From the IMG/VR virus record IMGVR_UViG_3300009705_002608, positions 1 to 23,620 of that record: a stretch of DNA of 23,620 nt, one strand, 5' to 3'. Origin of the DNA: a virus. The position numbers and the translations under genes are program-made. Shown piece by piece: positions 487 to 18,900 of this stretch. Under the pieces are notes generated by a model. It had not been told where the DNA came from. It searched no databases and was given only the letters and a program-made list of their open reading frames with translations. The stretch's first letter is position 1. Each line of letters opens with the position of its first letter.

Positions 487-989
487 AGGATAAATTTAAA
501 GAAGTCTATATAAAAGTAGCAGAACAGTTTGCAGAACTTAGTACTGCCAAACGTGCCCAAGTAGGTGCTATTATTGTTAAAGACAACAGAATTATTAGTA
601 TAGGTTACAATGGTATGCCTAGCGGATGGACTAATGAATGCGAAACTACTGATACATGGAATGATATTCCTCACATGAGAGACAAGTTTATTGGTGATGG
701 TGCTGTTATGCATAGTTCACCACATGGTAATACTTGGAGCAAATTAAAAACAAAACCAGAAGTGCTACATGCAGAAACAAATGCAATAGCCAAAGTAGCA
801 CAAAGCAGTGAAAGTTGTAAGGATGCTGTACTATTTTGTACACACGAGCCTTGTATAGAATGTGCTAAATTAATATTTCAATCAGGCATATCAGAAGTAT
901 ATTTTAAAAATACATATGATGCCGCCAAAGGATCAGGCAGAGACTTTTTAGAAAAGAGTGGATGCGTAGTCGAACATTTAAGTGAGTAA
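483..989 (+). CDS. Deoxycytidylate (dCMP) deaminase
   Basis: Predicted zinc-dependent dCMP deaminase (168 aa) converting dCMP to dUMP, the precursor for thymidylate. This is the reaction of T4 gene cd and suits an AT-rich phage. The zinc and catalytic motifs are visible: H96-A-E98 (zinc ligand and proton shuttle) and P123-C124-x-x-C127 (two zinc ligands). An N-terminal GAIIVKDNRIISIGYNG strand-loop is typical of the family, and length is normal. The GTG start overlaps the preceding stop by 4 nt, suggesting translational coupling. The lineage also has allosteric dCTP/dTTP control, but I cannot judge that here. MazG-like and guaC genes downstream support a nucleotide-metabolism role. Confidence 0.93.
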   Translation: MKDKFKEVYIKVAEQFAELSTAKRAQVGAIIVKDNRIISIGYNGMPSGWTNECETTDTWNDIPHMRDKFIGDGAVMHSSPHGNTWSKLKTKPEVLHAETNAIAKVAQSSESCKDAVLFCTHEPCIECAKLIFQSGISEVYFKNTYDAAKGSGRDFLEKSGCVVEHLSE

Positions 990-990
990 A

Positions 991-1923
991 ATGAAAGTAA
1001 TACCATTAGTAAATGCAGGAGTTCTAATAGACTGCAACATATCAAAACTTACAGAACAAGACTATCAAGACATTAATGAGATATACTTAGACAACTTGTT
1101 AATTGCTTTTGTCAAACAACCATTTGAAACAGTACCATTTGCAAAGTTATGTCACAAGATGGGTGGCTTTGCTAATTGGAAACAAATGCTATGGAAACAA
1201 GATGGTGCTAACATAGGCAATCTTGAATATGTAGATCCATTTACATTTGAAGGTGAGGACAATGACTTCCCACTACAACGAGTAACAGGCAAGAAAACAG
1301 AAAAAGGTTTACCAACTGGTATCTTTGGCAACGGAGAACTAGATTGGCACAGTAATATGAATGGTGATATGGATAGAGCCAGAGGTGTTGCTTTACAAGG
1401 TGCTTGGCACAGTGAAGGAACACATACAGCATTTATGGATACTGTAAAAGCATACGATGATATGCCAGATGAATTAAAAGCACGTTGCGAAGGTGTTATA
1501 GGCAACTATGAATATGCTCCTGAAAATTGGGCAAAAGGTGTAGCAACTCCACAACTACAAATGATGAAAGGTTTTGGATTAGTTGACCACAAGTACACAA
1601 TGCCTTTGGTACACGAAGGCTTTAATGGTAAGAAAGGTTTATACTTCCATTATCATAACAACTGTACTTTCGAAGATAAAGAACTTAAAAAATTATTAAT
1701 GGAACATTGTTTCCAACACAAATACATATATGAACATGAATGGCATCCTGGCGATATTGTTATATCAGACCAAGTACTAACACTACATAAAAGAGTAGAA
1801 TGGGAACCTGAAGTAATTGCAAATAGAGTACTACATAGGATTACATTCCATTATGACAACATGGTAGATGACTATTTTGACAAGTACACTAAGTTAAAAG
1901 ACACAGACAAATTGGAATACTAA
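991..1923 (+). CDS. TauD/TfdA-like Fe(II)/2-oxoglutarate dioxygenase
   Basis: A 310-aa protein with the TauD/TfdA layout. The first iron motif region is GELDWHSN (H120-S-N122). The usual GTHTAF-type segment and 'AYDDMPDELKARCEG' follow at about 144-168. The C-terminal motif is WHPGDIVISDQ..TLHKR (H266) followed by RVLHR (R279/R283), the expected second histidine and 2-oxoglutarate-binding arginine. The family hydroxylates or desaturates small molecules. The canonical HxD appears as HSN, so the carboxylate iron ligand is an asparagine here; activity may be altered. A GTG at 982 would add three residues and overlap the preceding gene. I prefer ATG 991, though neither has a strong ribosome binding site. 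It abuts the sulfotransferase-like gene. Substrate unknown. Confidence 0.75.
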   Translation: MKVIPLVNAGVLIDCNISKLTEQDYQDINEIYLDNLLIAFVKQPFETVPFAKLCHKMGGFANWKQMLWKQDGANIGNLEYVDPFTFEGEDNDFPLQRVTGKKTEKGLPTGIFGNGELDWHSNMNGDMDRARGVALQGAWHSEGTHTAFMDTVKAYDDMPDELKARCEGVIGNYEYAPENWAKGVATPQLQMMKGFGLVDHKYTMPLVHEGFNGKKGLYFHYHNNCTFEDKELKKLLMEHCFQHKYIYEHEWHPGDIVISDQVLTLHKRVEWEPEVIANRVLHRITFHYDNMVDDYFDKYTKLKDTDKLEY

Positions 1924-2556
1924 ATGATTTTTTTAAACGAGAAGGAAAACAAAGTTATAATTTCCGCTCGTAAATGCGGATTAATGTCTTTGTCTAATCT
2001 ATTTAATGATTACGATGATTGGAAAAATTACTCTAGTAGCACAATATACCAGCATGGTAATCCAGACCCACTAAGTCCTAAAGTACCTCCACGTGGAAAC
2101 AGTAACTACCTTATAGACAGAACTGTGTACCCAAATGAATTACCAAGTCAAGATAACATACCTTTCGATAATGCATTTTGGAAAGATACTGACGTTGTTT
2201 TAATAATTAGAGATCCATGGCAAAGATATGTTAGTGCATTTTGTCAATTAACAAGAACAAATACAAACAGCATTGACAATGGATTCACAATTGGTAATTA
2301 TAGTTATGATGATGGACATACAGCAAATTGGTTGTATATCACAGAACACATGCTGTATAAATCTTTAACTGTAGTAAAAACAGACAACCTCACAGAATGG
2401 TTTAACAAACAAGGTATGAATATACTCAAAGTAAACCAAACTGTAGATGAACACAAACAGCAAATAGCACAAGAACTAACGCCACATAAAGATGCAATTA
2501 TGGAATACTTGGCACCAGAGTATAAAATATATAATAATTTACTTGACAATAACTAA
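1924..2556 (+). CDS. Sulfotransferase-like protein
   Basis: A 210-aa protein starting directly after the stop of the dioxygenase gene. Residues 11-20 (VIISARKCGL) resemble the 5'-phosphosulfate-binding loop of PAPS-dependent sulfotransferases, although the usual GT/S residues are replaced. Residues 92-106 (VLIIRDPWQRYVSAF) closely match the 3'-phosphate-binding motif RDPxxRxxSxF, with R96 and S104 as expected ligands. Together they suggest transfer of sulfate from PAPS to a sugar or other hydroxyl, as in carbohydrate sulfotransferases. The short length leaves little room for an acceptor domain. The dioxygenase neighbour and the downstream UDP-sugar dehydrogenase fit a glycan or small-molecule modification role, which is inference. 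Confidence 0.62.
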   Translation: MIFLNEKENKVIISARKCGLMSLSNLFNDYDDWKNYSSSTIYQHGNPDPLSPKVPPRGNSNYLIDRTVYPNELPSQDNIPFDNAFWKDTDVVLIIRDPWQRYVSAFCQLTRTNTNSIDNGFTIGNYSYDDGHTANWLYITEHMLYKSLTVVKTDNLTEWFNKQGMNILKVNQTVDEHKQQIAQELTPHKDAIMEYLAPEYKIYNNLLDNN

Positions 2557-2571
2557 GGAATGCAGTATAAT
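2543..2571 (+). promoter_or_regulatory. Consensus sigma70 promoter (TTGACA-17-TATAAT)
   Basis: TTGACA at 2543-2548 and TATAAT at 2566-2571 are separated by 17 nt, a perfect match to the housekeeping bacterial promoter. The -35 lies inside the end of the sulfotransferase-like gene. Transcription would start near 2578, which is the A of the next gene's ATG. Confidence 0.8.
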
Positions 2572-2577
2572 TAACCT

Positions 2578-2817
2578 ATGAGCAAAAAATCTAAAACACA
2601 AATGACTAAAGCAGAACTAATAACATTGTGTTCTGACTTAGAAAAGACCGTTAAAGAGCAACAAACAGAAATTGAAAATCTACAAAATGACAGGATTGCG
2701 TTAGATTCAACCATTGTAGACCAGGATACAAGTATTATTATCTCTGGGATGAATGCTAGAATTAAAGCACTAGAAACAAAGATTATTGATTTAGACAGTA
2801 GGAAAGAATATGAATAA
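2578..2817 (+). CDS. Small predicted coiled-coil protein
   Basis: A 79-aa, Lys/Glu-rich protein, unrecognised. Residues 12-75 read as continuous amphipathic helix with heptad-like Leu/Ile spacing (LITLCSDLEKTV, IENLQND, IKALETKIIDLDS), so a coiled-coil oligomer is likely. There is no signal peptide or membrane segment. A consensus sigma70 promoter lies directly upstream and its predicted start coincides with the ATG, so the message may be leaderless; no Shine-Dalgarno is seen between the -10 box and the ATG. The 3' end overlaps the next gene by 8 nt. Function unknown; the strong host-type promoter suggests early expression. Confidence 0.7.
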   Translation: MSKKSKTQMTKAELITLCSDLEKTVKEQQTEIENLQNDRIALDSTIVDQDTSIIISGMNARIKALETKIIDLDSRKEYE

Positions 2818-3199
2818 CAAGGTATTTGTTTACGGCACACTTAAAAGTGGCGGAGAAATTAGAGGTCTTAATGGCTTTGGACCAGACAAGGTAGAGATTG
2901 TGGGTATGGCTACAACTGTATATCCAGATTATGATATGATGGACTTGGGTGCATTTCCAGGTGTAGTTATGGGCGGATCAAAAAAGATTAAAGGCGAAGT
3001 TTGGTTAGTAAACGATGAAGTAATGGATCAGTTAGATGCTATAGAAGGTTATCCAGACTTTTACAATAAGATACCAACAGAAACAACTGAGGGTAAAGCA
3101 GTTATGTATTTCTTAGGACCCGACTATAAAGAAAAGTATGGTGAAATGGAATCAGCACATATTGAAGAATTTGGAGATACACTCGAATGGAAGAACTAG
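2810..3199 (+). CDS. Gamma-glutamylcyclotransferase-like (GGCT/AIG2-like) protein
   Basis: A 129-aa protein with the GGCT-like fold signature. The N-terminal VFVYGTLKSGG (YGTL, residues 8-11) forms the substrate loop, 'GAFPGVV' lies near 47-53, and the conserved glutamate E79 sits in LDAIEGYPDFYNK. The family releases 5-oxoproline from gamma-glutamyl amines or peptides; E79 would be the acid/base. Length is typical of bacterial AIG2-like proteins. An AGGAAAG-type ribosome binding site precedes ATG 2810 inside the upstream gene. The end overlaps the MazG-like gene by 13 nt. The true substrate in a phage (glutathione derivative, protein crosslink or other) is not evident. Confidence 0.8.
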   Translation: MNNKVFVYGTLKSGGEIRGLNGFGPDKVEIVGMATTVYPDYDMMDLGAFPGVVMGGSKKIKGEVWLVNDEVMDQLDAIEGYPDFYNKIPTETTEGKAVMYFLGPDYKEKYGEMESAHIEEFGDTLEWKN

Positions 3200-3513
3200 T
3201 TAGACTAATTACTAAATGGCATTACGATAGAAACCTTATAGAAGGATCGGATGACAAAACACAATTTGCTAAACTTATACAAGAAGCAGGTGAGTTGTCA
3301 GACAACATTTGCAAAGAAAGAGACATCAGTGATGACATAGGTGACATGATGGTTGTGTTAATTAACATAGCTGAACGTAATGAATTAACACTTACTCAAT
3401 GTTTACAAAAAGCATACGATGATATCAAGGATCGTAAAGGCATGATGATTGATGGAGTGTTTGTAAAAGAAGATGACGTTATTAGACAAGGCTTAGGAAT
3501 TCCAACAAAATGA
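3187..3513 (+). CDS. MazG-like nucleotide pyrophosphohydrolase
   Basis: A 108-aa all-helical protein with the MazG metal-binding pattern: E33-x-x-E36 in KLIQEAGELSD and D50-x-x-D53 in DDIGDMMVVLIN, followed by a helix ending KAYDDIKDRKGMM, typical of single-domain phage MazG proteins. The family hydrolyses (d)NTPs to monophosphates. Marine phage homologues have been proposed to affect ppGpp or recycle host nucleotides, a role that remains debated. Its stop overlaps the ATG of guaC by 4 nt (ATGA), so the two are probably translated together, which supports purine-nucleotide recycling. Confidence 0.85.
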   Translation: MEELVRLITKWHYDRNLIEGSDDKTQFAKLIQEAGELSDNICKERDISDDIGDMMVVLINIAERNELTLTQCLQKAYDDIKDRKGMMIDGVFVKEDDVIRQGLGIPTK

Positions 3514-4559
3514 GAATAGAAGCAGACGTAAAATTAGATTACAATGACGTTTTACTTAGACCCAAACGAAGTACTGTGGGCAGTCGTAAAGACGTTGACT
3601 TAAAACGTAGATACAAATTTAGGAACAGCGGTAAAGAATGGGAAGGTATTCCTATTATGGCGGCTAACATGCAAGGCGTTGGCACATTTGCAATGGCAGA
3701 AGAACTTGTTAGAAAGCCGATGTTTACATGTTTAGATAAAAACTACCAGCCAGCAGACATTTGGAATTGGTTAGGCAATCATGTACACAAACCAGACCTA
3801 TGCAGAAACATAGCAATAAGCACAGGCATTACAGATATAGACAAAGAACGAATAGACGCAACTATCAAACTATCACGCAGTATAAAATATGTGTGTATTG
3901 ATGTTGCAAATGGGTACAGCGAACGATTTTTAGACTTTGTAGCAAGGTTTAGAGACCAGTATCCAGAACTTACAATTATTGCTGGTAACGTAGTTACAGC
4001 AGACTTAACTGAGGAGTTATTATTACGTGGAGCAGATATCGTTAAAGTTGGCATTGGGCCTGGTAGTGTTTGTACTACTCGTATTAAGACAGGTGTTGGG
4101 TATCCGCAATTATCAGCCGTTATTGAGTGTGCCGATGCCGCTCATGGTCTTGGCGGACACATCATTGCTGATGGCGGCTGTAGTAGTCCTGGAGATGTAG
4201 TTAAGGCATTTGGTGCCGGAGCAGACTTTGTTATGCTAGGTGGCATGATGGCAGGTTGTGACGAAGGCGGCAAGATAGACGGTGAATCAAATACAATAGA
4301 ATTTTACGGTAGTAGCACTACTCAAGCACAGGAGAATACAGGTGGAGTACAGGATCATAGAACAAGTGAAGGCAGAATTGTACGAATACCTCGTAAAGGT
4401 CCAGTTACCAATGTTGTCACAGACTTACTTGGAGGTTTGCGTAGTGGTTGCACTTACGTTGGTGCCGACAAATTAAAGAATTTATCTAAGTGTACAACTT
4501 TTGTACAATGTAAGTCAACACATAATACAGTTTTTGAAAACTTACAGGTAGGTGAATAA
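3510..4559 (+). CDS. guaC: GMP reductase
   Basis: A 349-aa protein very close to bacterial GuaC in length and sequence: [22 protein letters not shown] at the start, [11 protein letters not shown] at 50-60, [10 protein letters not shown] at 129-138, and the catalytic loop [11 protein letters not shown] with C188 as nucleophile. [45 protein letters not shown] and the C-terminal [11 protein letters not shown] also match. It lacks the CBS insert of IMP dehydrogenases, which supports GMP reductase: NADPH-dependent conversion of GMP to IMP plus ammonia. In a phage this would redirect host guanine nucleotides toward IMP and adenine nucleotides, consistent with an AT-rich genome. The neighbours (MazG, dCMP deaminase) fit. 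IMPDH activity is the less likely alternative. Confidence 0.95.
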
Positions 4560-4824
4560 AAACAATGCTCACAATGAGCGAATATATTATAACAGAGAAG
4601 GAATGATTATCCCTAACAGCGACGAAGCCCTACATATTATATGGGAACTAGAACATGAAATGAAGAACCCACGTAATGATGGCTGGACCGGCAGTGACAT
4701 GAAACGTCGACTATGGGATATTAAAATGAGAGTGGATAAGGCATTAGTTAATGCACCAGAGTATGTTGGCGATGAGCCATACGAAGACCGCTATATAATA
4801 GAACGGATTAAAGGCAACGTATAA
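4552..4824 (+). CDS. Hypothetical protein, 90 aa
   Basis: Unrecognised. It is a soluble, charged protein with an acidic/basic mix, rich in Trp and Arg in the middle (GWTGSDMKRRLWDIKMRVDKAL), probably helical, with no signal peptide, Cys cluster or membrane segment. The GTG start lies 8 nt inside the end of guaC. The stop overlaps the next gene's ATG by one base (TAATG). Both overlaps indicate a genuine co-translated gene rather than a chance frame. Confidence 0.65.
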   Translation: MNKNNAHNERIYYNREGMIIPNSDEALHIIWELEHEMKNPRNDGWTGSDMKRRLWDIKMRVDKALVNAPEYVGDEPYEDRYIIERIKGNV

Positions 4825-5609
4825 TGTTAAAGTTAGGAATCATAGGTAAAGGATTTGTAGGCTCAGCAGTAGCAAACGGATTCGATAAAGACTGTGAGCA
4901 AGTTATTGTAGACCCTAAGTACACAGATAACACTATAAATGACTTGCATGATTGCAAACTAATATTTGTTTGTGTCCCTACACCAGTTGCAGAAGATGGT
5001 AGTTGTGATACAACCATAGCAAATGATGTACTCTCAGAGCTTAATAGACTTCAGTACAAGGGTGTTGTAGTAATTAAGAGTACAGTTATACCAGACTATT
5101 TACAGGAATTTAAAAAAGAATACGAACTAAAAATAGTTTATAATCCAGAGTTCCTCACAGAAGCAAATGCAAACGAAGATTTTAAAAATCCTAATATGCA
5201 AGTGTTAGGTGGTAAATGGAGAGACTGTGAAGTAGTAGAAAAAGCATATCTTAGACACAGTTCAGTTAAGATTGTTCCTACATTTAAAACAGATTTAACA
5301 ACAGCGAGTCTACTCAAATATACTATTAACAGTTACTTAGCAACTAAAGTAATGTTCTTTAATGACTTACATAAGTTACATAACAGTGGCAGTAGTATGG
5401 TTAGTTGGGAACAGTTTACAGACATGCTAACAAGAGATCCACGTATAGGCGGTAGCCATATGCAGGTACCAGGTCCAGACGGAGAACTTGGCTTTGGAGG
5501 ACATTGTTTCCCCAAAGATACAGAAGCACTTTTAAAGTATGCACATGATAAGAATATTAAACTTAATATGCTTAAAAAGGCAGTCGAAACAAATAAAAAA
5601 ATCCGTTAG
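4824..5609 (+). CDS. UDP-glucose/GDP-mannose dehydrogenase-like, short form
   Basis: A 261-aa nucleotide-sugar dehydrogenase-like protein. Visible elements are the Rossmann glycine motif GIIGKGFVGSAV (6-16), FVCVPTPV (48-55), YNPEFLTEANA (106-116), the catalytic lysine/asparagine helix LLKYTINSYLATKV (K165, N169), and GPDGELGFGGHCFPKD with catalytic C228. These are the residues for two-step NAD-dependent oxidation of a UDP- or GDP-hexose to the uronic acid. Typical enzymes have about 400-450 residues; this one stops soon after the catalytic cysteine, so the C-terminal UDP-binding domain is missing. Either it is a naturally minimal phage version or it works with altered substrate binding. It may serve glycan or surface modification. 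Confidence 0.85.
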   Translation: MLKLGIIGKGFVGSAVANGFDKDCEQVIVDPKYTDNTINDLHDCKLIFVCVPTPVAEDGSCDTTIANDVLSELNRLQYKGVVVIKSTVIPDYLQEFKKEYELKIVYNPEFLTEANANEDFKNPNMQVLGGKWRDCEVVEKAYLRHSSVKIVPTFKTDLTTASLLKYTINSYLATKVMFFNDLHKLHNSGSSMVSWEQFTDMLTRDPRIGGSHMQVPGPDGELGFGGHCFPKDTEALLKYAHDKNIKLNMLKKAVETNKKIR

Positions 5610-5614
5610 TTTTT

Positions 5615-5622
5615 AATAAATA
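5615..5622 (+). promoter_or_regulatory. T4-type late promoter motif (AATAAATA)
   Basis: Matches the NATAAATA form of the T4 late promoter (TATAAATA) used by marine T4-like phages. It lies 78 nt upstream of the cytochrome/copper-enzyme gene, just after the sugar dehydrogenase stop. Confidence 0.5.
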
Positions 5623-5629
5623 TACACAT

Positions 5630-5678
5630 AATAGTAAAAAACTATTGAAGTATCAGAGTATTCACTCGTAGTTGATAC
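5630..5678 (+). promoter_or_regulatory. Structured 5' leader with two hairpins
   Basis: Two inverted repeats lie between the late-type promoter and the ribosome binding site (AAAGGA near 5688). The first is AATAGT-AAAAA-ACTATT (5630-5646), a perfect 6-bp stem. The second is GTATCAGAGT-ATTC-ACTC-gtagt-TGATAC (5650-5678), a 10-bp stem with a 5-nt bulge. They could control translation or stability of the message, or serve as a protein site. No known riboswitch is recognised. Confidence 0.45.
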
Positions 5679-5699
5679 GCAATCTAAAAGGAAAATAAA

Positions 5700-6986
5700 A
5701 TGTACAAGCACATAGCCGTGGCTCTAACAGCCATATGGTCTACTTCAGTGTGGGCTACAGATTATGTTACGGAAGTAGCAGATATTATTAATGATAATTG
5801 TGTAGTATGTCACCGTCAAGGAGGTATAGGTCCTATGAGTTTTGAAAGTTATGAGCAAGTCAGACCGTGGGCACCACTAATACAATTAAAGGTATTAACA
5901 AGAGAAATGCCACCGTATGCTTATGACCATGGAATTGGTATACAGGACTTACAAGGAGATTGGAGACTGTCCACTAAAGACATAGACACAATAGATAATT
6001 GGGTAGAACAAGGAGCACAATACGGAGACCAGGATGTCTTTAGAATTCCCCCTAGGCTTAGAGACACAGAAGCATGGAATTTTGAACCCGACTTTGGTCT
6101 ACCAGATGTAATCATTCCAAGTGTACCAATTGACATACCAGCAACCGGTAACGACTTATGGCACAAACACAATGTTCCAACAGGGCTAACTAGTGATAGA
6201 TGTATTAAGGCAGTACAAGTTAAGCCACGTGGTAATGCAAAGTCAGTAGTACACCATGCTAACAGCAGTATTATAACTGAGGGAGGCAGACAAGGAATGC
6301 TAACTGAGTATGCTATGGGAAAGTGGGGAGAGATAGTTCCTGCAGGAGTATGCAGAACTATACCAGCCAACGCAGAAGTGGCATGGGATATTCATATGTT
6401 CCCAGGTGGACTTGGAGCAATGGCACCAGGATCAGTTATCAAAAACAACGTGGTAGAGATTGGGCTGTGGTTATACAGCGAAGAGGAAAGCCAAGAATTG
6501 AAATACAAACAAGATTTGAGTTTGTATCGCCTAGGCGACCAGGACGATATAACTATTCCACCCAACGGCTATTACATGACACAAGGCTTCCACAGTTTTG
6601 ACCATCCTGTTAGACTAGATAGTTTTCAGCCACACGGACATTTAAGAATGAATGCCGCTAGCCTAGAGATATTCTATCCCGAGTCAGGACGCACAGAACA
6701 AATTAGTCAAGTGAGTAATTGGAGTGCAACATGGCATCACAGTCATTTGTATGCTCCAGATGTAGCACCACTCTTGCCAGCAGGAGCAGTTATTGTTCTG
6801 AAGCAATGGTATGACAATACGGCTAACAATCCAAACAATCCAGATCCTGATATGTGGGTAATGGGTGGCAGTAGAACAGGCGATGAAATGACACATGCTT
6901 GGTTGGCCATTACACATCTAGATGATGAAGGATACAATAAACTAAAAGAGGAACGAGATGAAAAATTTAATATTGCTAGTAAGTAG
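5700..6986 (+). CDS. Exported cytochrome c / type II copper monooxygenase-like fusion
   Basis: A 428-aa exported protein. Residues 1-19 form a signal peptide (cleavage likely after VWA). A c-type heme motif follows, C34-V-V-C37-H38, with M70 (REMPPY) as a candidate distal ligand. Residues about 155-405 resemble the two-domain PHM/dopamine beta-hydroxylase copper fold: H185-H186 (VVHHANSS) and H232 (DIHMF) match the CuH ligands; H312-G-H314 (QPHGHLRMN) and M397 (GDEMTHAW) match the CuM HxH and Met ligands. The known family hydroxylates C-H bonds using O2 and electrons from ascorbate; the fused heme suggests an electron relay. Location would be periplasm. The ribosome binding site is AAAGGA. 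It heads a three-gene cassette with a lipoprotein and a membrane microprotein. Substrate unknown. Confidence 0.8.
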   Translation: MYKHIAVALTAIWSTSVWATDYVTEVADIINDNCVVCHRQGGIGPMSFESYEQVRPWAPLIQLKVLTREMPPYAYDHGIGIQDLQGDWRLSTKDIDTIDNWVEQGAQYGDQDVFRIPPRLRDTEAWNFEPDFGLPDVIIPSVPIDIPATGNDLWHKHNVPTGLTSDRCIKAVQVKPRGNAKSVVHHANSSIITEGGRQGMLTEYAMGKWGEIVPAGVCRTIPANAEVAWDIHMFPGGLGAMAPGSVIKNNVVEIGLWLYSEEESQELKYKQDLSLYRLGDQDDITIPPNGYYMTQGFHSFDHPVRLDSFQPHGHLRMNAASLEIFYPESGRTEQISQVSNWSATWHHSHLYAPDVAPLLPAGAVIVLKQWYDNTANNPNNPDPDMWVMGGSRTGDEMTHAWLAITHLDDEGYNKLKEERDEKFNIASK

Positions 6987-7134
6987 TATTATTATTATAA
7001 CAGGATGTTCTAGTGCAGGCTACAATGGACCGCATGAGTTTGATTGGATGCCTCACCCGGTGATATGGGAGAACAATATTAGAACTTGCAGGAGTGCGGA
7101 TGTTTGTAGAGCAGAAACACTTTTTAGAAGATGA
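6958..7134 (+). CDS. Small lipoprotein, 58 aa
   Basis: Starts with MKNLILLVSSIIIITGC: a charged start, a hydrophobic stretch and a lipobox (ITGC, C17), so a lipoprotein of about 42 residues after signal peptidase II cleavage. The mature part is CSSAGYNGPHEFDW..., with two further cysteines (C44, C50) that could form a disulfide, plus several Trp and His. It overlaps the end of the cytochrome/copper gene by 29 nt in another frame. Its stop overlaps the next ATG as ATGA. A periplasmic-facing partner of the copper enzyme is plausible. A spanin-type lysis lipoprotein is an alternative, but no lysis genes adjoin. Confidence 0.65.
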   Translation: MKNLILLVSSIIIITGCSSAGYNGPHEFDWMPHPVIWENNIRTCRSADVCRAETLFRR

Positions 7135-7235
7135 TTATGCAAGGGTACATAATGTATGGAATTCTTATCTTTGTTAATGTAGCAGTGTATGTAATGATAC
7201 AGATGTTTTTCGAAGGACACGAAGCTTTTAACTAA
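7131..7235 (+). CDS. Single-span membrane microprotein, 34 aa
   Basis: A 34-residue ORF starting with an ATGA overlap on the lipoprotein stop. Residues 5-26 (GYIMYGILIFVNVAVYVMIQMF) form one strongly hydrophobic segment, followed by a short acidic/His tail EGHEAFN. It is rich in Met. Such peptides often act as small subunits or anchors of membrane redox complexes; together with the upstream heme/copper protein and lipoprotein it could complete an envelope complex. This is inference from context. It ends 4 nt before the convergent minus-strand gene. Confidence 0.5.
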   Translation: MIMQGYIMYGILIFVNVAVYVMIQMFFEGHEAFN

Positions 7236-7239
7236 GATT

Positions 7240-7776
7240 TTAAAGTAGTATAGTATTTAAATATGATACAGTATCAAAATAGTTCTTTCGCAAATTAATT
7301 GAAAACATTTTAGAACTTACATTAATATCTCTATGATCACATCCATGTGACAATTGCACATTTAATGCCATTACTTGACCTGGCATAATATATTTTGATT
7401 CATCTTCTTTTCCATGTGTTATGTAGATAGGATGATCTTCTAGATTGAATAACACATTACATTTTCGAACAAATGGATTAGTTGCCCAACCTAATAGGAA
7501 GTCTTCATGGTTTTTCAAATGTACGTTTGCAGGAACAGTTTCAAATCCAATACTATGTTCTGCTAATACTTCTATAGGACTTAACAGTTCTTTAACTCTT
7601 TCTAAACAAGATAAGTCTGACAACATTAGTATGTCTTGTTTTACTGGAGCATCTTCATACCTATCTGTGTGCATGTAGTATGGACTATCCGGAGTTGTGT
7701 TCGCTATCTCATGCTCCAAATCTAGTATTGCAGGTATGTCTAAATTAAAATCGTATACGGTACTAAACTTACTCAT
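7240..7776 (-). CDS. Hypothetical protein, 178 aa
   Basis: Unrecognised soluble protein with no signal peptide. It contains several His/Asp groups (YYMHTDRYED near 34-43; THGKEDES; QLSHGCDHRDIN) and a beta-rich centre (CNVLFNLEDHPIYITHG...YIMPGQVMALN). The 'MHTD' pair with a later 'SHG' and a C-terminal arginine (NLRK) is reminiscent of small 2-oxoglutarate/Fe(II) oxygenases or cupin-like folds, but the match is too weak to assign a function. It overlaps the upstream DUF1289 gene by 8 nt and is co-transcribed with it. Confidence 0.6.
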   Translation of the reverse strand: MSKFSTVYDFNLDIPAILDLEHEIANTTPDSPYYMHTDRYEDAPVKQDILMLSDLSCLERVKELLSPIEVLAEHSIGFETVPANVHLKNHEDFLLGWATNPFVRKCNVLFNLEDHPIYITHGKEDESKYIMPGQVMALNVQLSHGCDHRDINVSSKMFSINLRKNYFDTVSYLNTILL

Positions 7777-7963
7777 TCGCTATTCTCTCTAATACTTTAT
7801 TCTTCTCATCGTCGGTCATTATATACCAGTCTCGCATCTCAGTAGCAGTTCTAAAACAACCGATACAATACTCTCCGCTCTCATCAAAAGTACAAACTTT
7901 GATACACGGACTTATTACTGTTGATGGAGGCCTAGCCTTTCCCCTTCTCAAATCTTCTTTCAA
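7769..7963 (-). CDS. DUF1289 small cysteine-motif protein
   Basis: A 64-aa protein matching the DUF1289 pattern: SPCIKVC....YCIGCFRTATEMRDWYIMTDDEKNKVLERI. The cysteines C20, C24, C33 and C36 form a probable zinc or Fe-S site, and the Trp-x-x-Met-x-x-x-E/K segment is typical. DUF1289 proteins are common in Proteobacteria and have no firm function. No ATG exists in this frame after the upstream stop, so initiation is at a TTG (7961-7963, or 12 nt further in); a purine-rich GAAGAGGA lies immediately upstream, closer than ideal. Likely acquired from a proteobacterial host. Confidence 0.75.
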   Translation of the reverse strand: MKEDLRRGKARPPSTVISPCIKVCTFDESGEYCIGCFRTATEMRDWYIMTDDEKNKVLERIANE

Positions 7964-7997
7964 TCCTCTTCTTTTGCGGTTCTGTGTATATTAACTG

Positions 7998-8005
7998 TAT
8001 TTATA
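7998..8005 (-). promoter_or_regulatory. T4-type late promoter motif, minus strand (TATAAATA)
   Basis: An exact TATAAATA on the minus strand, 35 nt upstream of the DUF1289 gene start. This is the T4 late consensus, suggesting that the DUF1289/178-aa pair is expressed late. Confidence 0.55.
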
Positions 8006-8020
8006 TGCACATAGACTGGC

Positions 8021-8065
8021 TATTACCAATTTTTTAGTAAAAGTTACCAGAAAAACTGGTAATAA
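8021..8065. promoter_or_regulatory. Operator-like inverted repeat cluster
   Basis: A perfect 7-bp inverted repeat TTACCAG-AAAAA-CTGGTAA occupies 8045-8063. A further half-site TATTACCA at 8021-8028 is the exact reverse complement of TGGTAATA at 8058-8065. The cluster ends 3-6 nt before the -35 box of a consensus promoter, a position suited to an activator or repressor. As RNA on either strand it would be a hairpin with an A5 or T5 loop, but no U-run follows on the plus strand. Confidence 0.5.
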
Positions 8066-8068
8066 ACT

Positions 8069-8097
8069 TGACATAGACGCAGTTTCCTAGTATAATA
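8069..8097 (+). promoter_or_regulatory. Consensus sigma70 promoter (TTGACA-17-TATAAT)
   Basis: TTGACA at 8069-8074 and TATAAT at 8092-8097 with a 17-nt spacer, a perfect consensus. Transcription would start near 8104, giving a leader of about 24 nt with an AAGGA ribosome binding site before ATG 8128. Confidence 0.85.
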
Positions 8098-8127
8098 TAC
8101 ACTTAGTTTAGCAAAAAGGATAACACT

Positions 8128-8442
8128 ATGATAGAGATATTAAAAGAAGTAACTGACTGGGGCAAGTACTCAGTTAACAATGGGATTTACCACGTTAATG
8201 GTGCTGGGCAATTAGTTGCATACAAGAAATCTGAAACAGCTGAACTTAAAACATTTAAGAATCCGTTAAAGCAGTTTAGCAAAAGCAGACGTAAGTTTGT
8301 TAAGTTAGACGAAGTAGAAGAGCAATTAGCAGATGATGTTATTGTTGTTCAGGGCAGTAACGGTAAAACTTACACAATACAGGACGGCAAATGTAGTTGT
8401 CCTGGGTATACATATAGGGGAAATTGTAAACATGTCAAATAA
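8128..8442 (+). CDS. SWIM zinc-finger protein
   Basis: A 104-aa protein whose C-terminus carries a SWIM-type zinc motif CxC...CxH: C89-S-C91-P-G-Y-T-Y-R-G-N-C100-K-H102. SWIM domains bind nucleic acid or protein; stand-alone versions occur in phages without a settled role. The N-terminal half is basic (KNPLKQFSKSRRKFVK), consistent with nucleic-acid binding. An AAGGA ribosome binding site precedes the ATG. Its 3' end overlaps the ATG of the lipoprotein gene by 11 nt, so both belong to one transcript from the consensus promoter. It might regulate that transcript, which is speculation. Confidence 0.75.
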   Translation: MIEILKEVTDWGKYSVNNGIYHVNGAGQLVAYKKSETAELKTFKNPLKQFSKSRRKFVKLDEVEEQLADDVIVVQGSNGKTYTIQDGKCSCPGYTYRGNCKHVK

Positions 8443-10792
8443 ACATACTAAACTTTTTACTGCAATTGCAACAGCATCGCTGATGACTGCATGTGCTAGT
8501 GGAGGCGGCTCAACTACCGCACCAGTGCAAACAATTATTACACCGCCAACAACCACAGTTACTACTGACCCTGACAAGCGAATCCAGTTTGAAACATTTC
8601 AAGACAACTATGAAACTACAACTAGTGCGTTAGGTTACAACAGAGTAACATACAGTGTAGGTGATTACAACGATACTGCTTGGGTTAATGGCAAATACAC
8701 CGTAGAAGACTTTGCATTTTTGCAAGTTACTATCGACGGAGACCATCGTGGTAAAAACCCAAACAATCCAGATTCCGAGGAGCACTCGGGAGCCGGTGCT
8801 TGGATGACAAATGCAAGTTATGTTATAGAAAATGATATCAACCAAGACGGTCATAATGATTTTATTGTTTGGATGAGAACATTTGGAGACTTCAACACTA
8901 TACCTGGCACACGAGCATTGCAATTTGTTAATGACGGTGAAGGACATTTTGCACTAGACTGTAGTGTTTTCGATGACGGAGTATGCCCCTTAGTGTTCGG
9001 TGAAGGATCATTACTAACAAACATGGGGTGGTTTAATAACGAAGATGCTCCAGTAAAAGCTGAGAATACTGGTGCCATACAGCAATATGATTTAAACGGT
9101 GACGGCAACAAAGACTTATTTGATACAGGATTGTTGTGGTTAACTGAGAACGGGAAGTTTGTAGAATCACGTAATAACTTGCCTGACTTTATGCTTGAAA
9201 ACTTAAATGCTGACGGTGTCGATGTTGGCATATTTGTACATGACCATGCTGTAGGTGATTTAAACGGTGACGGGTTCAACGACATATTCATGCCCAACAC
9301 AACACCTGTTAGTTCGCAAAATAATATGTACAAGTTTTTTATGTTAAATGACGGCAACGGCAACTTCACTAATACCAGTTTCAAAGTAGGACACTCGGCA
9401 CATTTTGCAACAGCAACTACTATTGCAGATTTTGACGGAGACGGCTTTGGTGACATTGCATTAGGTTGGAGTGGCGGCGCTTATGTTAACCTAGGCGGAG
9501 ATAGTGTAGGTGGCATTTATTGGGGCAACGCTGAAACAGATTATACTACAGAATACACCGCATTACCTCCTGGATATTATGCAACTAATATTGCATTTGA
9601 TATGCAGGCAACTGATATTAATGCAGATGGCTTACTAGACTTAGTTATAGCAAACACAGACCGTGATAATTATTATGTAGGGCATGTGTTACAGTTCTTA
9701 ACGAACAACGGCGACAGGACATTTGACCATGCGGCATTTAGAGCAGAAGAGTTAATAGACGGAATTAACAACGGTGTAAGTTACATCTATATACTAGACT
9801 TCAATCATGACGGTGTTGATGATATTTTAGTTACGTCACAGGATCGTGCGTATGCTATGATTAACAACGGCGATGGAACATATACAGAAACAAGCCAGTT
9901 TGCAGTCCCGGATAATAATGCTATATTTAACATGCTATTTCCTGTCGAAGTAGACGGCAAATATGACTACGACTTTATTGGAGCGAATATCATATCACCG
10001 TCAGACACACAAACAATTACCAGTTTCTTTATTAGTTTAGACCCGCCCTCGCAGTTAGAAGAGATGAGAGCAGAGCTACTTAACAAGCCATTACAGTATG
10101 CACAAACTATTGCTGACAATAAAACATTGTTTCACAATATTAAAAATGCAACACTTAGCGACAATGTTTTCTTTGCGAGAAATGGCGTTACAAGTATCCA
10201 AGGATACTCACACAATTTTGATAACATAGGTGTTACAGTGGGTAACACATCTAACGGAGCATTGGTATACTTAGACAAGCAAACAGGACAATTCCATTAC
10301 GGTTTAGGTTACATGACAGACAAGATAGGTACTAACAGTAACGGCAAATGGTATGGCAACGGTACTGCTGAATTGGATATTTCCACACTAAATGCATTCG
10401 CGGAATATACTACTCCTATACTAGCTAACCTACATGTTACAACGGGCCTAGCAATGTATAAGACGTCAGTACAAGGCTTTACAGAAGAAAGCAGTCAGTA
10501 CAACATCACTGTGGAAGACTTTACTTTAAACGATGCAGAATTATATGTAGATGTAACAGGTATGCACACATCAGTGTACGGAAATACATACTTAACATTG
10601 GGTACTAGTATGCATCAGAGCTTGAGTAATACAAGCATTGTGTGGGACGGTGGTTTAGTATCTGAATTTAGTAACGATGATGTTGCATTTAGAACTACTG
10701 TAATGCACACATATAAAATGTTCTATGCCAAAGCAACTACTAGTTCAGTTGACGGCGAAACATTTGAAATAGGATTTAACTTACAGTTTTAA
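8432..10792 (+). CDS. FG-GAP/VCBS-repeat surface lipoprotein
   Basis: A 786-aa protein. I chose ATG 8432 over an in-frame ATG 33 codons upstream because it begins a clear lipoprotein signal (MSNKHTKLFT..LMTAC, lipobox cysteine C21) with AGGGGA upstream. Calcium-loop motifs of FG-GAP/VCBS repeats recur at about residues 135 (DINQDGHND), 220 (DLNGDGNKD), 276 (DLNGDGFND), 333 (DFDGDGFGD), 395 (DINADGLLD) and 456 (DFNHDGVDD), implying a beta-propeller. Residues about 590-786 alternate polar and hydrophobic residues and end in F (GFNLQF), as in outer-membrane beta-barrels. Such proteins mediate adhesion or binding in bacteria. In a phage, altering the host surface or superinfection exclusion is possible. 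Its stop overlaps the convergent minus-strand ORF in a shared TTAA. Confidence 0.78.
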   Translation: MSNKHTKLFTAIATASLMTACASGGGSTTAPVQTIITPPTTTVTTDPDKRIQFETFQDNYETTTSALGYNRVTYSVGDYNDTAWVNGKYTVEDFAFLQVTIDGDHRGKNPNNPDSEEHSGAGAWMTNASYVIENDINQDGHNDFIVWMRTFGDFNTIPGTRALQFVNDGEGHFALDCSVFDDGVCPLVFGEGSLLTNMGWFNNEDAPVKAENTGAIQQYDLNGDGNKDLFDTGLLWLTENGKFVESRNNLPDFMLENLNADGVDVGIFVHDHAVGDLNGDGFNDIFMPNTTPVSSQNNMYKFFMLNDGNGNFTNTSFKVGHSAHFATATTIADFDGDGFGDIALGWSGGAYVNLGGDSVGGIYWGNAETDYTTEYTALPPGYYATNIAFDMQATDINADGLLDLVIANTDRDNYYVGHVLQFLTNNGDRTFDHAAFRAEELIDGINNGVSYIYILDFNHDGVDDILVTSQDRAYAMINNGDGTYTETSQFAVPDNNAIFNMLFPVEVDGKYDYDFIGANIISPSDTQTITSFFISLDPPSQLEEMRAELLNKPLQYAQTIADNKTLFHNIKNATLSDNVFFARNGVTSIQGYSHNFDNIGVTVGNTSNGALVYLDKQTGQFHYGLGYMTDKIGTNSNGKWYGNGTAELDISTLNAFAEYTTPILANLHVTTGLAMYKTSVQGFTEESSQYNITVEDFTLNDAELYVDVTGMHTSVYGNTYLTLGTSMHQSLSNTSIVWDGGLVSEFSNDDVAFRTTVMHTYKMFYAKATTSSVDGETFEIGFNLQF

Positions 10793-11040
10793 TCCATCCA
10801 GTCTTGACTCTTATCGCCATTCTTCATTTTGTTGTAGCGGTTTAAGGTCTTTATAAGGTCTTCACGCTCAGTTGGACTTAGGTGCCAACCTTCAGTATAT
10901 GAAACGGCACCCTCACTAAAAATAGCCAGCTCGGCTACTTGTTTAGAAATTGCTTGACCTTCTTTCTCGAGTTTACCTAAGTAGGCTGAAATTTCTTCAG
11001 GCTCGGCTGACCCTAGGAACCCGTGAAAAAATTTACAGGA
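10789..11040 (-). CDS. gp51: gp51-like tail assembly chaperone segment, reached by -1 frameshift
   Basis: An 83-codon open frame with no ATG, GTG or TTG start, lying in the -1 frame relative to the gp26-like gene and overlapping its last codons. It encodes ...GSAEPEEISAYLGKLEKEGQ..., then EGAVSYTEGWHLSPTERED, a pattern I recognise from the small gp51/tail-chaperone proteins of marine T4-like phages. Slippage at A AAT TTT (minus strand, 11034-11028) would join 288 residues of the gp26-like protein to 79 residues of this frame, a 367-aa fusion. A weak downstream stem (CTGAAG-aaa-TTTCAG) could stimulate it. The TAA shares a palindromic TTAA with the convergent lipoprotein gene. A homopolymer sequencing error is the main alternative. 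Confidence 0.7.
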   Translation of the reverse strand, partial: SCKFFHGFLGSAEPEEISAYLGKLEKEGQAISKQVAELAIFSEGAVSYTEGWHLSPTEREDLIKTLNRYNKMKNGDKSQDWMD

Positions 11041-11891
11041 TCAAAGTTAATAGTAGAATTGAATGTGTTATCACATTCTTCATTACTACATTCAACTTGC
11101 ACCTCGTTATCAACACCCTTAGCATTAATACTATTAATGAATGCTTCAATTTCCTTTCCAACGTTGTTATCAGTATTTTCTAAAAACTCCCTAATAACTG
11201 CCTTGTCTTTAATAACAGCATCTTCACCTTTCTCGTCTTGGAAACTAATACTATAAATAGCATCAATTAATAACTCGAAGTTTAAGTCTGCTAGTTTAAC
11301 AAAACTAGTATTAAATGCTTTTAGCCTTTCCATGTCGTCGTCTAATGCAGAAATACTTTGCATACTTCTTGTACTTTGGAAACTAGCAACACCTGCCTTA
11401 ATAGTGTTCTTATAACTAAACGGCATACCTGAAATAACAAGTCCGTTTGCAAGTACAACTTCGTACACATCGTCTAACTCTTCCATTGACTGCAAACTTT
11501 GTGCAACACTTACGGTTACATCAGTAGTAGTTTCGCATTTTGGACATTTAGCGGCAACATCAACATCATCGCCACCACTTGCACCTCTAATTGCAATCAG
11601 TAATGCATCTACGTCAGCACTATACAAATCTCTTGCATTTTTAATTTCTGGTACACATGAATGGATCAATGAAGCAACAGCTTCACCGTTTAATAAAGCA
11701 TCCGGGTTTTTTAATAATAACTCGTCTTTAGTAGTCATCGGATAAATTGCTAATTCTTGAGTACTATCATCATTGAACTCGATAATACCTTGTTCATAAA
11801 ATTTACCACCACTAGGGATTTTTGTGAATATCTTTGGTGCTCTGAAGTAGGCACTTAACGGATTCTGCGTTTTGTTCATATTTTTGCTCAT
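11013..11891 (-). CDS. gp26: T4 gp26-like baseplate hub / tail assembly protein
   Basis: A 292-aa protein resembling the gp26 family of T4-like phages (T4_baseplate family), with N-terminal KIFTKIPSGGKFYEQGIIEF and ELAIYPMTTKDELLLKNPDALLNGEAV, a characteristic stretch in marine T4-like gp26 proteins. Two cysteine pairs, C116-x-x-C119 (CPKC) and C268-x4-C273 (CSNEEC), probably bind zinc. T4 gp26 is shorter (about 208 aa). It acts in baseplate hub assembly and, with gp51, is likely a tail-assembly chaperone. It lies on the minus strand, divergent from the tape-measure-like gene, with its own late promoter motif (11964-11971). The gene ends just after an A AAT TTT TTC slippery site that opens the gp51-like frame. 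Confidence 0.8.
   Translation of the reverse strand: MSKNMNKTQNPLSAYFRAPKIFTKIPSGGKFYEQGIIEFNDDSTQELAIYPMTTKDELLLKNPDALLNGEAVASLIHSCVPEIKNARDLYSADVDALLIAIRGASGGDDVDVAAKCPKCETTTDVTVSVAQSLQSMEELDDVYEVVLANGLVISGMPFSYKNTIKAGVASFQSTRSMQSISALDDDMERLKAFNTSFVKLADLNFELLIDAIYSISFQDEKGEDAVIKDKAVIREFLENTDNNVGKEIEAFINSINAKGVDNEVQVECSNEECDNTFNSTINFDPVNFFTGS
11028..11034 (-). promoter_or_regulatory. Putative -1 ribosomal slippery heptamer (A AAT TTT)
   Basis: On the minus strand the gp26 frame reads GTA AAT TTT TTC ACG GGT TCC TAG. A AAT TTT fits the X XXY YYZ rule in the correct frame, 14 nt before the stop codon. The -1 frame opened here runs 79 codons and encodes the gp51-like segment, which has no start codon of its own. 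Confidence 0.65.
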
Positions 11892-11914
11892 TAAAACTCC
11901 TGTTAATTCTATAA

Positions 11915-11922
11915 GATAAATA
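11915..11922 (+). promoter_or_regulatory. Late promoter motif (GATAAATA) for the tape-measure gene
   Basis: GATAAATA on the plus strand, 81 nt upstream of the GTG start at 12004. The same GATAAATA form precedes the portal and tail-fibre genes, so the phage's preferred late motif appears to be GATAAATA. Confidence 0.6.
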
Positions 11923-11963
11923 CGTTTGTAGTTAAATTTATATCTAATGAATAACTTAGTACT

Positions 11964-11971
11964 TATTTATC
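11964..11971 (-). promoter_or_regulatory. Late promoter motif (GATAAATA), minus strand, for gp26-like gene
   Basis: GATAAATA on the minus strand, 72 nt upstream of the gp26-like ATG at 11891. It lies downstream of the plus-strand motif, so the two divergent transcripts would overlap at their 5' ends. Confidence 0.6.
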
Positions 11972-11976
11972 TACAT

Positions 11977-11990
11977 TAAAACTAGTTTTA
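11977..11990. repeat. 14-bp perfect palindrome before tape-measure RBS
   Basis: TAAAACTAGTTTTA is a perfect palindrome lying directly before the AAGGA ribosome binding site (11991) of the tape-measure-like gene. It could be a protein-binding site or a weak RNA structure affecting initiation at the GTG start. Confidence 0.4.
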
Positions 11991-12003
11991 AAGGAAATAC
12001 TGA

Positions 12004-15000
12004 GTGGCAGTTGAATTTAATATAGAAGGTCAAAATTATCGTTTTCCAGATTGGGCAACAGAATCCACTATGGAGGAAGTATCTAAAGTACTTCAAGAGA
12101 TTGCAAAAAATAATGGTGCGTCTGACAAAGACCTTAAGGATCTGGTAGCCAACAATAAGAAAATGCATTTAGAAATGTCTAAAAATGCAAAGAGTGGCGA
12201 AAAGTCCGACAAAGACAGAAAGGAAGAGGCCAAAGAACACGCAGGATTCTTTAGCGAAATGATTAGAGGCATCAAAGGTAACGAAGATGCTATCAGGGAC
12301 GGAAATAAAATAGACAAAAAGGAATACAAATCCTTTGCTACTAAAGTTATAGACGATTTTGAAAACACCGGTGAACAACTTGTCGGAGCAGTAGGCTATG
12401 TAGGCGGAGGCATATTTAAAGCAGGTATGCTACTTGGCGGCGTGGCTGTTACAGGCGCCGGCTTAATTAGTAGAGCAATGCTAGGAGCAGGTAAGTCAAT
12501 TAACGACCTTACAGAAGTTGGTCTTGGGTTTAGCAGTACATACAACGATATGGGTAAAACTACTACCCAGGCAATTGGACAACTGGGTGCATTGGGCGAT
12601 GGGTTTGCAGGTGCGGCACAGAGAATGGCAAATTCTTCTAGTGTGATAGCAACGCAAGGCTTTGGCAGATTTACTGACACCATGCAATTTGCGGCAGACA
12701 CCTCCGAAGAATTAGGCTTGAGTTTCGAAGCTAGTATGGATCGTTTTGGACAGGCACTAGATAGACGACAAGCAATGTTAAACTTGGGTAATGTTGACCA
12801 AGGAAGACTAAACAAGCAAGTAGCAAGAACAACAAGATTACAACAAGCATACTCAACAGCAATTGGTGTGAGTACAACAGAACTACAAAACTTTGTAAGT
12901 ACACTATTAGACGAAGGTCAATTAACAGCAACACTTATACAATTTAACGATGCCGTACGAAGTGATGTTATTGGCGGCATAGAAGTATTTGCTTCTGGCA
13001 TGGCGGCAATGGGTGGAAAAGCAGGAGCCGATCTAGCAACAGCATTCCAAGAAGCGGCGAATACAAGTGCTATTGGAATGAGTCAAGCGGCTATTGGAAT
13101 GGTAACAGCATTACCAAATCTCCAAGGGCCAATGAACGAATATATAGAAGCAGTACAAAACGGAACATTAAGCCAAGACCAAGCTCAAGGAATGGTAGAA
13201 AATTTAACGTCGACACTGGGCAATCTTAGCCACAGTGAAAAACAACGTATCAGAGCAATGGCTAACATTGGCGACGAATCAGCAAAAACTATGGCAAACG
13301 CTATAGCACAGTTTGAACAGTCTGAAAGCAAAATGAAAGATATTAATAAAGCATTAGGCACAGGCTTTAAAATGGACTTAGTACAAAAGGGTACTAACCA
13401 ATTTAATAAAGTAATGGCACAGATATCAGGCGGAGCCCAGAATGCATTCTACAGTTTATTCTCAGATCCAGAAGTAACAGGAGCAATATCAGATGGCTTC
13501 AAGGAAATACTAGACATCTTTGGCTTTGGCGTAGACGACATGAGTGGAGCCGCAATGAGTATGGGCGACAGAGTTGGCGGCATGGCAAAAACTTTAGCTA
13601 AATGGATAAAAGTAGCGGCAGACCAACTGGCAGAATTTGCAAACTATCTCAAGGATGCGTTCGACGAAGGCGGATTTGGCGGAATGGTCAAGACGCTGTT
13701 TGGCGATATGGCATCAGCAATAGGTAAAGCAATAACGAAATTTGTTGTGACCACGATGATAAGCATAGCGGCGGCGTCGGTTGCAAAAGCGGCGGCAATG
13801 CAGATGTTTACAGGAAAAGCCCAATCCGGAGCCGCAGGCGCAATTGCAGACACAATAAAGAATAAGGTATCAGGTAGCGGTGCCAAAGCAGTAGCAGGAG
13901 GCATGGAAGCGGCAGGCGAAAAAGCCACTGGTGCAATGGAAGGAGCGTTAACCAAAGGCGGAAAAACAGGCGGCTTCCTACAAAGAATAGCAAATGGCGT
14001 TAAGAAATTTGGCGATACCAAAGTACTTAAAGGTGCGGCGGCAATAGCACTATTAGGCGCATCAGTCGGATTAGCGGCAGTAGGATTAAGAACATTTAAT
14101 GAAGTAAACTTTTCATCATTAGTAAAAGGCACAGTTGCACTAGGCGGATTAGCCTTATTGGCAAAAACATTAGGCAAAGGCTCTCTTGGAATGGTGATGG
14201 GTGCGGCGGCAATAGCACTGTTAGGCGCGGCAGTAGTACCATTAGCGTTCGGACTTAGTTTAATGAAAGATGTTGGGTTCAAAACAATTGGTGTGTTGGC
14301 GGCAGGACTGGTAGTATTAGGTTTAGCGGCGGCAGGACTAAGTTTTATATCTCCATTTATTATAGCAGGTTCAATAGCAATCGGGGCATTAGGTCTAGCA
14401 CTTGTACCATTGGGTATTGCTATGCAGTTAATTAACGAGCCTCTTAAAAACTTTGGTCCTAGTTTATCAGCATTAGCAGACGTCGACGGCGGCGCACTAA
14501 TGAATACAGCAGGCGGATTATTAGCAATAGGCGGAGCAATGGCGCTAATGGCACCGATGCTACCATTTATGCTTATTGGAGCTTTGGCAGGACCTGCTAT
14601 GGAGAGACTAGCAGATTCGCTATATGCATTTAATCGTGTAGATATGAAAAACTTGAGTTTGGCTGGCGGAGCTATGAAGTCACTAGGTGCAGGCATGAGT
14701 GCTATAAGCGGTGGCTCACTGATGAGCAGTGTGAAAGATGGCATCGGTGGATTATTTGGCGCTGACAGTCCAATTGAAAAGATACAGAAATTTATACAAG
14801 GATTTAAAGGCCTCGACCTAGGCGGCATATACATGGCTGGGTTCGCAATGGAAAAACTAACAGACGCTACAGCACAAATACCGTCGGCAACACAGAACTT
14901 GGGACCATTTGCTAGTTCAATGGAAGACTTAGGTCTAGCTCTTAGGTCAATGGGAGACGAGCCGTTTAAAGGCTTCGAAGGCATGGAACCATACGCAACA

Positions 15001-16095: not shown

Positions 16096-16128
16096 TTTCA
16101 TAAAGACTTGACATTATTTCCTTTAAGT

Positions 16129-16136: not shown

Positions 16137-16157
16137 TACGCATATAAAGGAACTTTT

Positions 16158-18880: not shown

Positions 18881-18900
18881 TTTTCTTAAACGTAGCAAAG

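Follow-up and report, generated by a model that had tools for sequence, protein, structure and literature searches.

A predicted heme-fused, PHM/DBH-like copper monooxygenase encoded by some T4-like giant phages

A gene in the 23,620-nucleotide stretch of viral DNA analysed here (the window) is predicted to encode an exported protein in which a cytochrome c-like domain is followed by a domain resembling PHM and DBH, the copper monooxygenases that serve as hormone and neurotransmitter enzymes in animals. With a probability that we put at roughly 0.6, this gene, which we call type A, is a phage auxiliary metabolic gene whose product would act in the periplasm as a heme-fed, PHM/DBH-like copper monooxygenase supporting host oxidation of small organic compounds. 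The features of the gene are listed here, with row counts referring to an alignment of 76 viral and bacterial relatives and with the PHM ligands numbered H107/H108/H172 and H242/H244/M314.

5700-6986, + strand: type A gene, predicted exported cytochrome c-PHM/DBH-like protein (open reading frame, relatives and model)
5700-5756, + strand: signal peptide, residues 1-19, by inspection, with the cleavage point read by eye
5763-6014, + strand: cytochrome c-like domain, about residues 22-105 (modelled helices 22-33, 51-67 and 92-103; Cytochrome_CBB3 in relatives)
5799-5813, + strand: CxxCH heme-attachment motif, residues 34-38 (76/76 rows)
5907-5909, + strand: M70 in an MPP motif, candidate sixth heme ligand (76/76 rows)
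6066-6935, + strand: PHM/DBH-like double jelly-roll, about residues 123-412 (Foldseek and VIA-align)
6252-6257, + strand: H185/H186, putative counterparts of the PHM CuH ligands H107/H108 (76/76 rows; profile register)
6393-6395, + strand: H232, putative counterpart of PHM H172 at CuH (76/76 rows; profile register)
6633-6641, + strand: H312xH314, putative counterparts of PHM H242/H244 at CuM (58/76 rows; 82/82 spanning viral copies)
6888-6890, + strand: M397 in (G/A)DEM(T/S), putative counterpart of PHM M314 at CuM (76/76 rows; 82/82 viral)

The open reading frame begins with ATG and encodes 428 amino acids with no internal stop. Its translation places the CxxCH motif at 34-38, the histidine pair at 185/186, and H232, H312/H314 and M397 exactly where the first-pass annotation had put them, and the N-terminus (MYKHIAVALTAIWSTSVWA/TD) resembles a Sec signal peptide by inspection, in agreement with the export signal that had been proposed.

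The A protein is predicted to have the two-jelly-roll fold of PHM. An AlphaFold2 model with 76 diverse sequences as input reached a pLDDT of 87.8 and a pTM of 0.85; a model from 30 close viral sequences had a pLDDT of 62, and it was the addition of bacterial relatives and of relatives of a second gene, type B (see below), that raised it to 87.8. PHM and DBH account for each of the first 31 matches in a Foldseek search of the PDB (E 2.8e-11 to 5.6e-9), and the row that follows has an E of 3.5e-5 and a TM of 0.10; VIA-align gives the model Z scores of 20.4 to DBH and 15.9-19.9 to PHM, the next fold being PNGase F at 7.9. Structure prediction, suggested beforehand as a check on the proposed resemblance, therefore returns PHM and DBH as best matches and not a different fold. 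A profile search of the PDB with the 76-row alignment finds human DBH at E=4.1e-5 (next match 0.011) and sets HH185/186 on VHHM, H232 on LEVHY, H312/H314 on LHTHL and M397 on LEEMC, residues that are the copper ligands of DBH, so that the order HH, H, HxH, M that had been read from the A protein alone proves to be in register with the animal enzyme. Judged from this register, both the CuH set (HH and H) and the CuM set (HxH and Met) are complete in the A protein. Among PDB entry titles, PHM mutants of H107 and H172 are described as lacking CuH, and mutants of H108 and M314 are also named.

Sequence searches with the A protein itself are far less informative. With Pfam, NCBIfam, PHROGs and a single-sequence search of the PDB, all that emerged was a weak, sub-threshold cytochrome match (Cytochrome_CBB3, E=0.023, 15.4 bits against a Pfam cut-off of 27). 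The Cu2_monooxygen models PF01082 and PF03712 are unmatched by the A protein in the Pfam search; of the 76 alignment members seven match PF03712 at E<=0.1, with 5e-4 as the lowest value, and PF01082 is absent from the list. Because neither model is matched above its curated cut-off, we describe the A protein as PHM/DBH-like and not as a member of these two Pfam families. The cytochrome profiles do better, with Cytochrome_CBB3 matching 70 of the 76 members at E<=0.1 (best 1.9e-5) and Cytochrom_C matching 53 at the same threshold, and C34, C37 and H38 are retained in every row together with M70, which may be the distal heme ligand. The fused cytochrome c-like domain recognised in the first-pass annotation is thus upheld, and of the profile searches that it had proposed the cytochrome part succeeded in most relatives (E<=0.1) while the Cu2_monooxygen part found no match in the A protein itself. 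MazG_C also matches 14 alignment members at E<=0.1 (best E 0.0076) and Haem_bd matches nine; these, and one acetyltransferase match, we attribute to chance or to the heme motif.

A scan of IMG/VR identified 156 relatives of the A protein, 80 of which were kept (L001-L080), with 73-98% identity in their best segment, and none were found in 50,697 phage records and 72,556 plasmid records. The A reading frames of these 80 loci contain no internal stops, and three lose their start at a contig end. The 76-row alignment has a mean column identity of 42% and 20 invariant columns, among them C34, C37, H38, M70, H185, H186, H232 and M397; seven of the nine residues singled out in the first-pass annotation are thus invariant (hypergeometric p=5e-9 over all residues, 6e-5 when restricted to His, Cys and Met). 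H312 and H314 are kept in 58 rows, and the 18 exceptions form one bacterial subgroup of B-type proteins encoded opposite A genes. There are 98 distinct viral A sequences, and when 16 partial ones are excluded neither the heme motif nor any copper ligand is lost in the remaining 82, which span the sites; variants of the methionine motif are GDEMS in eight A proteins and EQEMF in one B protein. With dN/dS values of 0.05-0.35 in eight pairs, the A gene is intact and under purifying selection.

The window belongs to a T4-like phage, as judged from four genes to the right of the A gene:

11013-11891, - strand: T4-type baseplate hub protein (phrog_150, E=2.3e-23)
16158-17849, + strand: T4-type portal, gp20 (phrog_213, E=3.5e-112)
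19865-20491, + strand: T4-type head maturation protease, gp21 (phrog_207, E=3.4e-60)
21621-22760, + strand: T4-type major head protein, gp23 (phrog_138, E=7.3e-99)

The gp23 protein is 70% identical to those of PA5oct-like giant Pseudomonas phages. The notion that a bacterial gene was fused to a phage contig during assembly might draw on the 119 kb contig L001, whose synteny with the window stops at position 7139, but we regard it as scarcely credible and reject it, since each flank of the A gene is backed by independent contigs: L001 matches window positions 1-7139 at 99.2% before diverging, and L254 (81 kb) and L255 (101 kb) have an 83%-identical A gene in the corresponding position and are collinear with the window in its gp20-gp23 region. 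The 156 relatives in IMG/VR likewise argue against a chimera. Carriage by a phage, the presence of the same gene near gp20-gp23 in other viral contigs and the absence of a bacterial chimera, all raised in the first-pass annotation, are thereby resolved, to all practical intents, in favor of phage sequence. Along window positions 5649-21944 DNA identity to L254/L255 is 76% in the A gene, 80% in the next gene, 87% up to 14795 and 96% from 16072, with 14796-16071 unmatched, and we read this rise as a sign of patchy exchange.

A T4-type gp23 is present in three of 36 A-carrying viral records, L014 (230 kb), L016 (about 340 kb) and L064 (77 kb), and was not found in the other 33, which are mostly fragments. 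In contigs of the L058 group the DNA polymerase and a large virion protein fall in families unlike those of the T4-like contigs, the virion protein being weakly similar (24% over 26%) to proteins of Pseudomonas phages with podovirus names. These differing families suggest that A is probably spread over two or more phage lineages: some T4-like giants, and probably a second lineage. Two loci with bacterial labels, L082 ('Neomarinimicrobiota', 335 kb, PBPT01000016.1) and L095 ('Flavobacteriales'), have neighbour families common to the viral loci and fall within the viral group of the tree described below, from which they are probably mis-binned phage contigs, L082 probably being a giant phage; gp23 also occurs in the assembly holding L082, not necessarily on the same contig.

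The surroundings of the A gene are diverse. Window positions 1-5609 are rich in metabolic genes (a ketoacyl synthase C-terminal part, dCMP deaminase, a TauD-like dioxygenase, GGACT, MazG, an IMPDH/GMP reductase-like protein and a UDPG/GDP-mannose dehydrogenase), and at 8333-10792 (+) there is an 819-residue protein with FG-GAP repeats (E=1e-17), which by eye resembles a lipoprotein at its start and a barrel at its C-terminus. Upstream of A in L016 (4959-9364) lie genes for CsgF (E=8e-13), CsgG (E=1e-45), a curlin-repeat protein (E=3e-5) and a FecR-domain protein, and curli machinery encoded by a giant phage would be a surprise. NifU/IscU-like and Fe-S_biosyn (IscA-like) genes are found near A in L014 (11253-11624) and L012 (13045-13413), and 22 viral loci include a member of the Fe-S_biosyn cluster. 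The window contains three copies of the T4 late-promoter consensus, TATAAATA, where 2.6 would be expected, and an exact copy is absent upstream of A, which lends nothing to the late-infection timing proposed in the first-pass annotation; sigma-70-like matches number 25 against 14.3 expected and so are no guide to expression. A perfect sigma-70 consensus (12/12) is located at 8068-8096, near the FG-GAP gene.

Relatives of A are also common in bacteria. Scanning one genome per bacterial or archaeal species yielded 210 relatives, and of the 76 loci kept (65-81% identity) 74 are labelled Proteobacteria, mostly Gammaproteobacteria such as Pseudohongiella, OM182 and 'SAR86'. The nearest, L083-L086, are 79-81% identical to A and share its architecture and ligands. 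In a tree of 69 rows, a quick one with a single long outgroup branch, 15 viral rows cluster with L082 and L095 (SH-aLRT 94), and the resulting group joins the bacterial L083/L086 at 100, within the bacterial family. These relationships suggest that viral A derives from a cellular gene, the likely source being the gammaproteobacterial family with Pseudohongiella and OM182 labels. In that family, to which the L083 genome belongs, 117 of 137 genomes have matches and 113 have at least nine, in a survey scoring at most about 12 candidates per genome; a first look at one member, G152, gave up to 63 candidates. The labels of the bacteria with related genes suggest the probable host and, taken with the first-pass annotation, a probably marine habitat.

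Bacterial A genes occur in chromosomal clusters, with one to five copies per fetched stretch, often in tandem. Their neighbours, in clusters named from one annotated member each, include an MFS transporter in 32 of the 76 loci, a cupin in 30, a GMC oxidoreductase in 18 and Gluconate_2-dh3 in 17; apart from the alcohol-dehydrogenase-like genes, the neighbours in these 76 loci form no coherent pathway, and a substrate cannot be deduced from them. A secreted protein of 317 residues is encoded near A in 50 of the 76 (for example L089:7069-8019), just upstream in the loci mapped; it has no Pfam or NCBIfam match, and no reading frame of its cluster is present in the fetched stretches of 81 viral loci.

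Many of the phages carry a second gene, type B, whose product is about 26% identical to the A protein. A scan with B gave 117 relatives and 80 loci were kept, 75 of them new and five already known as A loci. An open reading frame of type B lies 3' of A on the same strand in 33 of 80 viral loci, with gaps of -19 to 523 bp, and conversely 69 of the 75 new B loci also have A on the fetched stretch. In the six that do not, B starts no more than 665 bp from a contig end, and there is therefore no clear case of B without A among the loci examined; A without B does occur, as the window phage has no B within 23.6 kb. B has no relatives in the 50,697 phage records. All 54 distinct viral B proteins that span the sites keep the heme motif and the full set of copper ligands (one of the 54 contains an in-frame stop), and four B pairs have dN/dS values of 0.06-0.11.

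The pairing of the two genes does not appear to have been copied from the bacterial A cluster. We rejected such a derivation because the B-like gene encoded there opposite A has lost H312 and H314, and because better relatives of B lie elsewhere than the best A. The proteins concerned, L083:6501-8177 (-) and 17 others, keep the heme motif, the CuH ligands and the methionine while both CuM histidines are lost (18/18 rows), and it is possible that they are electron-transfer partners or inactive enzymes. A search with B of 14 genomes picked from the A hits, with a fifth close genome (G122) left out, gave as its best four the genomes of L083-L086, which are also nearest for A; 12 gammaproteobacterial genomes have 13-36 cytochrome-PHM-like matches each, split matches included (for example in G038). 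The better bacterial relatives of B are 52-53% identical to viral B, and in all four of the L083-L086 genomes the top matches for A and B are on separate contigs. This suggests that phages may have assembled the pair themselves, the alternative being that a host with the pair is unsampled. Viral B proteins are about 400 residues long and the open frames of their bacterial relatives about 520-610; the two bacterial relatives that were read by eye have a redoxin-like N-terminal part and viral B does not. Tentatively, and somewhat short of an even chance, we suggest that several phage lineages share a purpose-built two-enzyme cassette for periplasmic oxidation. Its two different heme-fed copper monooxygenases would have come from distinct loci within a single bacterial family rich in oxygenases, B would have been trimmed of its redoxin-like part, and, with the two genes placed head to tail, infection would drive the copper-dependent oxidation of dissolved organic matter that is typical of the host.

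Animal PHM and DBH use ascorbate as their reductant. In the phage protein, once the host had exported it and attached the heme, the built-in heme would take the place of ascorbate, with electrons passing from the periplasmic c-type chain of the host through the heme to CuH and on to CuM, where O2 would be split and one of its atoms would enter a small organic substrate at a C-H bond. Host dehydrogenases could then oxidise the resulting alcohol further, and the phage copy would sustain or increase an oxidation typical of the host, yielding electrons and carbon during infection; where both genes are present, A and B would probably act on different substrates or successive steps. For this metabolic reading we count the predicted fold, the conservation of the ligands, the dN/dS values, the nesting of viral A within a bacterial family and the abundance of matches in the genomes of the family with the nearest bacterium (117 of 137). 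Against it we count that alcohol-dehydrogenase-like genes are near A in under a quarter of the bacterial loci, that the A protein passes no Pfam cut-off, and that the window phage lacks B. Our preference for the periplasmic oxidation of small compounds derives from the bacterial gene neighbours and from a report on metagenome-assembled genomes of North Sea Gammaproteobacteria in which HTCC2089, a sister family of Pseudohongiellaceae, has unusually many oxygenase genes, with algal metabolites or hydrocarbons suggested as their substrates; the word 'copper' is absent from the main text of that study (PMC8371827).

The chief rival to the metabolic reading is an effect on the cell envelope, in which the A protein would oxidise a peptide, lipid or glycan of the host surface or periplasm and so shut out competing phages or make lysis and release easier. 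Such a role would be consistent with the peptide and small-amine substrates of PHM and DBH, with the export signal seen by inspection, with the location of A near structural genes in T4-like phages, and with the neighbours in some of the viral loci, where A directly follows a gene for a large virion protein matching an endolysin family (cluster 46; 8/81) or a peptidase M15 cluster gene (8/81). We consider it unlikely, however, as bacterial relatives of up to 81% identity are in chromosomal clusters with MFS transporter, cupin and alcohol-dehydrogenase-like genes, which fit catabolism better.

It is less probable again that A has ceased to be an enzyme and acts as a store or buffer of copper and heme, or as an electron shuttle. 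The bacterial subgroup that has lost H312/H314 (18/18 rows in alignment A2) while keeping the CuH ligands and heme motif does suggest that non-hydroxylating members of the family may exist, but the full CuM ligand set is present in 82/82 viral A and 54/54 viral B proteins. We give very little credence to a structural role, in which the double jelly-roll would be reused for a virion or decoration protein. PHM has been grouped with double-jelly-roll folds (PMC8812541), and capsid proteins of that type do appear lower in the list of folds for the A model (VIA-align Z 6.6-7.6), but the match to PHM and DBH is far stronger, and a structural role leaves the heme motif, the copper ligands and the identical architecture in bacteria unexplained.

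Metabolic genes in phages, enzymes of the PHM/DBH type and fusions to cytochromes are all familiar taken singly. Here a heme-fused PHM/DBH-like form is a common phage gene, and in little-studied bacteria its family reaches between a dozen and a few dozen matches in a genome. If active, these proteins would provide an uncharted route of C-H bond breaking in dissolved organic matter for the bacteria and their phages, and a PHM with its own electron supply would bear on how CuH and CuM are reduced. In the titles and abstract openings searched in the open-access literature, neither a phage nor a bacterial protein of this cytochrome-PHM make-up was described. One study calls PHM widespread in eukaryotes and places PNGase F, its partner in the clan, in bacteria (PMC8812541), and the body of a review table, its column heads not being visible, sets PHM and DBM in a separate column from the prokaryotic copper enzymes (PMC7435645).

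Among known systems, DBH (PDB 4zel) is the best structural match by Z and the best match in the PDB profile search; it is an animal enzyme for dopamine with a DOMON domain at its N-terminus, where the A protein has a putative c-type heme. PHM (PDB 1phm and 1sdw) shares with the A model the double jelly-roll, at Z 19.2 to 1sdw, and the order of the six ligands, but it is only 10-12% identical in sequence, and A differs in being bacterial and phage-borne and in having the fused cytochrome c-like domain; nor is there support for a peptide substrate of A. The products of amoC and nirK, and plastocyanin, have folds and reactions other than those of PHM and DBH. Genes for these three are carried by marine viruses, and in that respect they are copper proteins comparable to A, no protein of the PHM/DBH type being named in the parts of the two reports available to us (PMC8115048, PMC9402790). 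The gammaproteobacterial cytochrome c-PHM-like proteins, of L083-L086 and others, have the architecture and ligands of A, and differ from the viral form in being encoded on chromosomes, often in tandem and often beside the 317-residue secreted protein.
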